A stretch of 64,000 nucleotides of DNA from an uncultured Oscillospiraceae bacterium (GTDB lineage: Bacteria; Bacillota; Clostridia; Oscillospirales; Oscillospiraceae), in the NCBI GenBank assembly GCA_947626785.1, contig CANQTO010000004.1, positions 1 to 64,000 of the forward strand. The letters run 5' to 3'. A program made the translations under genes and the position numbers. This document shows positions 16,106 to 24,645 of this stretch, in pieces. The notes under the pieces are model-generated. The model was not told the DNA's origin, ran no database searches, and was given only the letters and a program-made list of their open reading frames with translations. Each line of letters starts with the position of its first letter. The stretch's first letter is position 1.

Positions 16106-16406
16106 TGGTTTTTCTCCTTTTCGTACTTTTTCCGGCGGCATTGGGGACCGCCTTTTTCATAGTACGGATGAAGCCGGATTTCCTGTACACACAACCGTGC
16201 GTATCAGACCGCGTCCGAAAAACAAACCGGCTTTTCAGCCGGTCGATCCCCCGTACGCGCGATATACGCGTGCACCGGAAAGGCTTCAGCCGCCCGATTG
16301 CGCGCCGGAACGGGTCCGGCGCCGGACATACTCCACGGAAGTTACCTCGTTTCCGAGCAATCTCCCGCTTCATCGCATACTGCGCCCTTTGCTCTACGCG
16401 CAGGCG
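16106..16406 (-). promoter_or_regulatory. Long 5' leader of the S10-spc-alpha operon
   Basis: From the predicted start site to the rpsJ ATG there are about 300 untranslated bases with GC-rich potential stems. Ribosomal operon leaders of this size often carry feedback sites bound by an operon product such as L4. No known leader family was matched by eye. Confidence 0.55.
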
Positions 16407-24260: not shown

Positions 24261-24300
24261 GTAGATACGGAGCAAATTCCGCTTTTTCTCCGAAAGATGA

Positions 24301-24325
24301 AGAGGCCGGGAGTTTCCCAGCCTCT
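24301..24325 (-). terminator. Hairpin between the small-ORF locus and secA
   Basis: AGAGGC-c-GGGA and TCCC-a-GCCTCT can pair around a 3-nt loop, interrupted by one mismatch. For leftward transcripts it is followed by a moderately U-rich stretch (TCATCTTTC), so it may stop antisense readthrough before secA. It abuts the rightward -35 element. Confidence 0.4.
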
Positions 24326-24353
24326 TGCAATCTGGCAAAGCGCGTGGTATTCT
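24325..24353 (+). promoter_or_regulatory. Promoter of the small structured mRNA
   Basis: TTGCAA (24325-24330) and TATTCT (24348-24353) are 17 bases apart. Initiation about seven bases downstream falls at 24360, exactly the first base of the panhandle arm GGGCACTGC. That coincidence supports the assignment. Confidence 0.65.
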
Positions 24354-24392
24354 GTCATAGGGCACTGCAACACAACGGCAGGCGGTTAGTCA

Positions 24393-24411
24393 CACCTCTG
24401 TAAAGGAGGTG
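24393..24411 (+). promoter_or_regulatory. Hairpin sequestering the Shine-Dalgarno of the small ORF
   Basis: CACCTC (24393-24398) pairs with GAGGTG (24406-24411) across a 7-nt loop. The second arm contains the core of the very strong AAGGAGGTGA ribosome binding site, so the folded mRNA would hide it. This arrangement is known from type I toxin mRNAs. Confidence 0.65.
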
Positions 24412-24418
24412 AGGCATT

Positions 24419-24502
24419 ATGCCAATCACATTGACGTTACATATCTGTGGATATACCATAACGCTGACTGTGAAAAGGACGACCCGCCACCCTGGCCGGT
24501 GA
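24419..24502 (+). CDS. 27-residue small protein; candidate type I toxin
   Basis: The 27-codon frame starts at an ATG eight bases after the near-perfect ribosome binding site AAGGAGGTGA. The peptide starts MPITLTLHICGYTITLTVK and ends in a basic RTTRHPGR tail. Its core alternates hydrophobic residues with Thr, which suggests an amphipathic beta strand rather than the transmembrane helix of Fst or TxpA. The mRNA has an SD-hiding hairpin and a 5'-3' panhandle, and a convergent promoter faces its 3' end. I do not recognise a named family, and toxicity is inferred from architecture only. It could instead be a leader peptide or another small structural-RNA gene. Confidence 0.6.
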   Translation: MPITLTLHICGYTITLTVKRTTRHPGR

Positions 24503-24564
24503 CGGGTCTGACTATTGTCTGACTTAAATCTCCAGGGCTAACCGCTTGCGCAGTGCCCTTTTAT
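24472..24564 (-). ncRNA. Candidate antisense RNA (type I antitoxin-like)
   Basis: Transcription from the consensus minus promoter would begin near 24564 and run into the hairpin at 24482-24507, followed on this strand by CGTCCTTTT. The product of about 90 nt is fully complementary to the last third of the small ORF and its 3' UTR, including the 3' panhandle arm. It contains two copies of AGTCAGAC (complements of 24506-24513 and 24517-24524). Alternatively, the promoter belongs to secA and reads through. Confidence 0.5.
24482..24507 (-). terminator. Intrinsic terminator of the antisense RNA
   Basis: The arms ACCCGCCACC and GGTGACGGGT (one mismatch, 6-nt loop) form a GC-rich stem. On the minus strand it is followed by CGTCCTTTTC. 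On the plus strand no T-run follows, so the hairpin is oriented to stop leftward transcription. It overlaps the stop codon of the small ORF. Confidence 0.55.
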
Positions 24565-24570
24565 ATTTTC

Positions 24571-24599
24571 ATTATAGACCGTGACAGCTGGTCTGTCAA
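24571..24599 (-). promoter_or_regulatory. Perfect-consensus promoter on the minus strand
   Basis: TTGACA (complement of 24594-24599) and TATAAT (complement of 24571-24576) are separated by 17 bases, a full consensus sigmaA promoter. It points into the 3' end of the small-ORF transcript, with secA lying 375 bases farther on. Confidence 0.85.
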
Positions 24600-24645
24600 C
24601 GGTTTTTCTTATTGTTTCCTCCCGTCCGCTTTTTCTTCTTCCCGG

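Follow-up and report, generated by a model that had tools for sequence, protein, structure and literature searches.

The locus lies in a 64,000-nt stretch of DNA from an uncultured Oscillospiraceae bacterium (the window), where it is flanked by two housekeeping genes of the chromosome, secA and one of the DUF1846 family. Its features are collected in Table 1. The initial annotation of the locus had listed a 27-codon ORF with its Shine-Dalgarno sequence (SD), a CACCTC-containing hairpin that could hide the SD, a panhandle joining the transcript ends, and a promoter on each strand, and every one of these elements held. It had overlooked the intrinsic terminator at which the antisense RNA would end, a sense terminator that overlaps the antisense −35 box, the other copies of the element, and relatives encoding helical peptides. 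The ORF, both promoters and the antisense terminator are present in the sequence; the transcripts themselves are inferred. Since the antisense terminator lies within the last codons of the ORF, the predicted antisense RNA is short (~92 nt) and confined to the 3′ half of the mRNA. Directly upstream of the sense −35 box, with a 2-base overlap, is a near-perfect inverted repeat, AAGAGGCCGGGAGTTTCCCAGCCTCTT (24300–24326), and a separate S10-Clostridia ribosomal protein leader (RF03136) was found on the minus strand of the window at 16298–16381.

Table 1. Features of the locus in window coordinates; R1 and R2 are covariance models described in the text.
Feature	Position	Strand	Basis and remarks
Sense (putative toxin mRNA) promoter, TTGCAA-17-TATTCT	24325–24353	+	Predicted start ~24360; sequence and conservation in relatives
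Sense −35 box, TTGCAA	24325–24330	+	Sequence
Sense −10 box, TATTCT	24348–24353	+	Sequence
Predicted toxin mRNA, ~247 nt	24360–24606	+	Closed panhandle fold, −101.7 kcal/mol; R1 and R2 matches
Outer panhandle, 5′ strand GGGCACTGC	24360–24368	+	Partner GCAGTGCCC, 24550–24558; 8/8 pairs with compensatory changes in relatives
Inner panhandle, 5′ strand GGCAGGCGGTTAG	24377–24389	+	Partner 24538–24549; helix 2, 96.5% of cells paired
SD-sequestering hairpin, CACCTCT-GTAAA-GGAGGTG	24393–24411	+	Helix 3; SD unpaired mean 0.13
SD, AAGGAGGTG	24403–24411	+	Paired with CACCTCT 24393–24399; GGAGG-to-ATG spacing 9 nt
ORF in the toxin slot, 27 aa, MPITLTLHICGYTITLTVKRTTRHPGR	24419–24502	+	Stop codon 24500–24502 included; translation, codon selection in relatives
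Predicted antisense RNA (putative antitoxin), ~92 nt	24474–24565	−	Start ~24565, end in TTTT near 24474; inferred from promoter and terminator
Antisense intrinsic terminator, hairpin GACCCGTCACCGGCCAGGGTGGCGGGTC then GTCCTTTT	24481–24508	−	Helix 4, covaries; also codes for the peptide's C-terminal tail
3′ panhandle strands, CTAACCGCTTGC and GCAGTGCCC	24538–24558	+	Sequence, covariation
Antisense promoter, TTGACA-17-TATAAT	24571–24599	−	Perfect, 12/12; sequence; conserved in relatives
Antisense −35 box, TTGACA	24599–24594	−	Sequence
Antisense −10 box, TATAAT	24576–24571	−	Sequence
Sense terminator, hairpin and T run	24577–24606	+	Overlaps the antisense −35 box, which is contained in the 3′ arm of the hairpin

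The 211-nt strand 24360–24570 folds as a closed panhandle of −87.8 kcal/mol (z = −6.15 relative to 200 dinucleotide-shuffled sequences, 0 of which folded equally well). In a MAFFT alignment of 51 diverged family members the proposed helices were paired in 94.0% of cells, and 153 cells showed compensatory double changes, compared with 43.6 after shuffling and no more than 32 when the partner strands were slid. Relatedness of the members inflates the contrasts with shuffles; the slide control is free of that fault. Changes on both sides were found at 8/8 pairs of the outer panhandle, whose strands vary among copies yet remain complementary, at 5/13 pairs of the inner panhandle and at 6/12 pairs of the antisense terminator stem. 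The SD hairpin was paired in 88% of cells, and its support is weaker because double changes occur at only 1/7 pairs. The panhandle and the antisense terminator hairpin thus covary strongly, and the SD hairpin less so. Most copies also carry an additional hairpin (GGTGCnnnnGCACC type, differing in sequence among copies) at the predicted mRNA start, 5′ of the panhandle; it is missing from the window copy, and a role as a 5′ stabiliser is conceivable.

Nearly every family locus encodes a peptide of 20–34 residues of the form M(P/R)IT..T/HI...TVTI.VK..NRH(S/P). Codons of the core, which precede the antisense terminator, gave a dN/dS of 0.23 among 53 distinct 27-codon members and 0.09 among 43 distinct 25-codon members. 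Variation in the core is concentrated at third positions (entropy 1.3–1.5 bits, versus 0.2–0.35 bits at second positions), a pattern absent in shifted frames. The codons of the peptide are therefore under purifying selection. In the tail that overlaps the antisense terminator stem dN/dS rises to 0.69 (27-aa class), and two Faecalibacterium members end before the tail, right after K/R, so the RNA appears to have shaped the tail, at least in part. Three checks put forward in the initial annotation can be answered here. Covariation supports the panhandle and, more weakly, the SD hairpin; loss of the ORF where the structure is kept, which would have refuted the reading, is not seen, the ORF being conserved where the structure is (dN/dS 0.09–0.23); and a covariance-model search of related Clostridia did recover a family (57/295 genomes of the order).

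A regulatory leader or attenuator, in which the ORF would encode a leader peptide and its translation would govern some downstream function, could account for the short ORF, the SD hairpin and the hairpins downstream of it. This explanation is all but excluded. The sense units of the copies in the same genome terminate at their own terminator, the neighbours of family members vary in identity and orientation, conservation is of the peptide sequence and not of a codon run, and a consensus antisense promoter opposes the ORF in nearly all relatives.

Among 123 members, the best antisense promoter scored 12/12 in 82 and 11/12 in 32 (≥11/12 in 114/123), while mononucleotide shuffles (n = 123) reached a maximum of 10 and gave ≥11/12 in 0/123. 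The sense promoter scored ≥10/12 in 85/123 members versus 2/123 shuffles. The 5′ region of the antisense RNA is nearly identical in sequence to the 5′ panhandle strand of the mRNA, and the two would therefore be rivals in pairing with the 3′ strand. The energy predicted for binding between antisense RNAs and mRNAs of paralogues ranged from −97 to −109 kcal/mol for cognate pairs versus −18 to −65 kcal/mol for non-cognate pairs; such strongly cognate binding, itself a prediction, is compatible with independent modules. We considered whether the antisense RNA could be the principal product, regulating other targets from its several copies, with the peptide unit as its sponge or target. In its favour, no other signal is conserved as well as the antisense promoter (perfect in 82/123). 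We nevertheless regard this as very unlikely, given that the peptide is under selection, that the strongest predicted pairing is with the RNA's own mRNA, and that relatives sharing the scaffold encode toxin-like peptides.

Five copies are detectable in the genome of the window with the covariance model R1 (see below), together with a 3′ half copy; those outside the window lie on contigs C42, C7, C21 and C35. The C21 copy (L019, 1766–2113) has a ~190-bp insertion with internal inverted repeats in place of the SD region, and its remaining module, including the antisense promoter, is seemingly intact. On C35 (L020, ~1700–2050) a full copy and the 3′ half copy lie within 700 bp of each other at a contig end. 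They are situated beside a 42-residue ORF whose match to SpoIIID (PF12116, E = 3e-15) is confined to the first half of that protein, a fragment of a truncated sporulation regulator. In five congeners with readable junctions the gap between secA and the DUF1846 gene is 164–213 bp and free of the element, versus ~520 bp in the window genome; at this site the element is a gain.

A search pattern built from the panhandle and terminator stems returned more than 100 genome loci, a lower bound, and 11 viral contigs. The loci are nearly all from Clostridia, comprising Oscillospiraceae and relatives, Faecalibacterium, Gemmiger, Evtepia and some Lachnospiraceae. Seven pattern matches in unrelated high-GC genomes (L156, L161, L173, L188, L192, L224, L257) were discarded as chance because they have neither a family peptide nor an antisense promoter, and a first viral pattern proved too loose (120 rows, chiefly chance matches). 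One member lies within a conjugation operon or ICE, adjoining PrgI and a CD1110-type VirB4, and members on viral or phage contigs are close to an SU10-type adaptor gene and a tape-measure gene. These settings suit a maintenance role on mobile elements, in contrast to the chromosomal surroundings of the window copy. Some copies are broken, the C21 copy lacking an SD and four others (L062, L210, L360, L364) a clean ORF; this is compatible with decaying addiction modules, and equally with neutral repeats. Linkage to a Cro/C1-type HTH gene was also considered. Such a gene is convergent with the module and just downstream of it in the C7 and C21 copies and in Vescimonas (L263, 4230–4433), which looked promising, but it neighbours only 7/127 elements and the idea was dropped.

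The dispersed copies in one genome, the tandem and partial copies, and the secA-DUF1846 gap that is element-free in five congeners (164–213 bp versus ~520 bp) could also be explained by a MITE-like small mobile or repeat element, with the panhandle strands as terminal inverted repeats, spread by transposition and an incidental peptide. Several points speak against this. Codons are under purifying selection; the outer panhandle strands, changing while staying complementary, are unlike fixed ends recognised by a transposase; promoters on both strands and the antisense terminator are conserved; inspection by eye showed no transposase and no target duplication; and unrelated TM peptides occur on the same scaffold. 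We therefore hold a MITE-like origin to be very improbable.

The peptide itself is unusual. By hydropathy, and by AlphaFold of a family member, the window peptide has no hydrophobic alpha-helical transmembrane segment: its maximum 15-residue hydropathy (KD15) is 1.27, versus 2.6–2.75 in helical peptides of Hol_Tox type. For the family as a whole, the 15-residue maximum is 0.8–1.8 in cores of this type (beta-type) versus 2.5–4.0 in the helical relatives that share the scaffold, and the hydrophobic moment of beta-type cores at 170 degrees is high. AlphaFold, run on a 34-residue natural family member with 28 relatives and not on the window peptide, gave a beta-hairpin with strands at residues 2–9 and 12–19 (pLDDT ~88 there) and a loose tail; pTM was low (0.32), as expected because the chain is so short. 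Hydropathy, moment analysis and this model thus predict a non-helical fold for the beta-type peptide. The C-terminus of the window peptide is cationic (KRTTRHPGR), a trait shared with membrane type I toxins in general, and a cationic amphipathic beta-hairpin, if the predicted fold is correct, could be compatible with membrane insertion or assembly. Hairpin peptides had no match in Pfam, NCBIfam or PHROGs, the window peptide did not match Hol_Tox (PF16935), and tblastn with the short peptides in phages and plasmids found Vescimonas only. Family peptides are unannotated in the sole annotated record examined, that of Vescimonas fastidiosa. No description of these peptides or of the family was found in the open literature searched; an entry in an earlier small-protein catalogue cannot be excluded.

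The strongest additional support for a type I toxin-antitoxin reading came from reciprocal retrieval by two covariance models. R1, trained on beta-type loci only, matches the window at 24355–24563 with 166.7 bits, and matches were found in 57/295 genomes of the order (1e-3), 25/391 of the class (1e-5) and 8/299 of the phylum (1e-5); these samples overlap, and the window's own genome is counted once in each. In many weaker R1 matches the slot holds a peptide of another kind, consisting of one hydrophobic helix that ends in lysine; MEYVYIMIFIIALIALIVSIKK, MDYIVIVLVLLLLLIIAIKK and MVTYEALFQFTLVIIGVIGLCVSIFNNKKK are examples. Among 97 full R1 matches the slot ORF was TM-like in 62 and beta-like in 26, compared with 3 and 0, respectively, of 334 control windows from the same loci, and an antisense promoter of ≥11/12 was present in 70/97 versus 4/334. 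The rules for TM-like and beta-like were drawn up after inspection of the data, and the 97 matches are those returned as loci, which is not a random sample. Conversely R2, built from 20 helical matches only on an alignment fitted to the R1 structure, retrieves the window at 24355–24563 (109.6 bits, E = 7.6e-24) and 17/17 other beta-type sources tried, and matches 71/291 genomes of the class. The helical matches on their own show 239 double-change cells versus 61, with the caveat that the alignment leans towards the structure. The shared scaffold is thus established at the level of sequence.

An independent protein search and sub-threshold RNA-family matches point to the same places. The helical slot peptide of locus L317 passes Hol_Tox PF16935 (32.5 bits, cut-off 23.3), and a separate PF16935 protein search, positive for B. 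subtilis and L. lactis among the control genomes, landed on the R1 places G137:C96, G137:C38 and G115:C4. At 8 places a sub-threshold match of the BsrG family (RF01412) shares position and strand with an R1 match, and at 3 with a Hol_Tox match. These scaffold relatives score 16–36 bits. The gathering threshold is 55 bits, and it was exceeded by B. subtilis alone among the controls and by 0/98 genomes of the order. Searched against Rfam, the window RNA gave nothing related at gathering threshold or up to E = 1, including RF01412. Having been tested against both RF01412 and PF16935 and having failed each, the locus is filed as a variant and not as a member of either family. A tandem array (L269, 1204–2337, minus strand) contains four modules, two encoding beta-hairpin peptides and two encoding Hol_Tox-like helical peptides. 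Three modules each were also seen in L363 and L244, and two in L183.

It remains possible in principle that the peptide of a type I scaffold has been turned to a harmless task in the cell, such as that of a microprotein acting in the membrane or modulating assembly. The unusually low hydrophobicity of the hairpin peptide and the strong conservation of the 25-aa class (dN/dS 0.09) speak for such repurposing. Against it are the patchy presence of the family, its mobile-element locations, its degenerate copies, and tandem arrays in which it is mixed with Hol_Tox-type modules, and we consider it unlikely.

Comparison with known systems places the locus nearest to those of Bacillus subtilis. There, the ribosome sites of txpA, bsrE and bsrG are concealed by four or five GC pairs, and the antitoxins pair with the 3′ ends of the toxin mRNAs over 100–140 bp, forming duplexes cleaved by RNase III (PMC6562991). 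The window locus resembles bsrG/SR4, txpA/RatA and bsrE/SR5 in its convergent toxin and antisense genes with 3′ overlap, its ribosome-binding site in a short stem and its long complementarity, and sub-threshold RF01412 matches fall on scaffold relatives at R1 places. It differs in the length of the antisense overlap (~92 nt versus 100–140; PMC6562991), in an end-to-end panhandle defined by covariation, in a predicted beta-hairpin in place of a TM helix, and, relative to BsrG, in that the window RNA itself is unmatched by RF01412. Hol_Tox (PF16935; NCBIfam PepG1 weakly) modules occupy the same ORF slot on the same RNA scaffold and are neighbours of beta modules in L269, but the window peptide has neither a PF16935 match nor a TM segment. 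Clostridioides difficile modules such as CD2517.1-RCd8 are likewise described as convergent, overlapping toxin and antitoxin genes in mobile-element settings, and their toxins differ in being 34–59 aa with a TM domain and a charged end (PMC6563280, PMC7699646); this comparison rests on the papers, with no direct comparison of sequences. Fst/Ldr and AapA1 are known for mRNA self-structure and antisense control, as is proposed here. Their toxins are alpha-helical TM peptides (PMC8309996), our analysis found no sequence or RNA-family link between them and the window family, and Fst and AapA1 are less close to the locus than BsrG is.

Taken together, the locus is likely to be a type I toxin-antitoxin module in which a BsrG-like scaffold carries a new class of toxin. 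It has a small ORF with an SD and under coding selection, and an antisense gene with its own promoter and end, the transcript of which is predicted. The initial annotation had proposed a type I module with a non-helical peptide, likened to Fst, AapA1 and BsrG. The type I reading and the non-helical peptide are both supported, the latter by hydropathy, moment analysis and AlphaFold of a family member; the likeness held in part, with BsrG the closest of the three. Transcription, repression and toxicity are still inferred. In the mechanism we propose, the sense promoter would give a ~247-nt mRNA, the translation of which would be restrained because its ends are paired as a panhandle and its SD is held in a local hairpin. 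The consensus promoter at the 3′ end would give the ~92-nt antisense RNA, whose own terminator falls within the final codons of the ORF. Complementary throughout to the mRNA's 3′ half, this RNA could displace the 5′ strand from the 3′ panhandle strand, and the duplex may then be cut by RNase III, a step inferred by analogy to the B. subtilis antitoxins RatA, SR4 and SR5 (PMC6562991). Should the antisense RNA fall behind, the 27-residue cationic amphipathic peptide would be synthesised, and the putative beta-hairpin would most likely insert in or assemble on the membrane and arrest the cell. Membrane action is inferred from sequence alone and the mode of killing is a guess. Points against the type I reading as a whole are that the beta peptide matches no family and falls below the helical type I toxins in hydrophobicity, that the window RNA has no Rfam match, that some copies are broken, and that double changes give the SD hairpin little support of its own.

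In a 2021 review, type I toxins are described as alpha-helical transmembrane peptides, with the exception of the cytosolic RalR and SymE (PMC8309996). We lean, by a small margin, towards a bolder reading in which the conserved scaffold of panhandle mRNA and 3′ antisense RNA is a general carrier, spread through Clostridia, on which toxin peptides with unrelated folds (membrane helices as well as beta-hairpins) are exchanged, the beta-hairpins being the first non-helical class of membrane-acting type I toxin. If true, type I systems would gain a new structural class of toxin, and a large set of unannotated genes would come within reach in common human gut bacteria (Faecalibacterium, Gemmiger, Oscillibacter, Vescimonas and some Lachnospiraceae). 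It would also raise the testable question of whether type I systems evolve by swapping the peptide while retaining the RNA control part. Covariance models locate such loci where the peptides are too short for protein searches.

A few loci carry odd slot peptides that look intermediate or differently built: MRISFFDVWCFHIIINIKLKKHRKTRHSA (L351, 1501–1720), MKFELIIWIKQFKIRIILTSGNRHPGR (L358, 1501–1675), MKITLVIEFLEYVLRIAFRKK (L276, 70–292) and MKRLTLTIQFDKFTVTIVIKKR (L275, 57–265).
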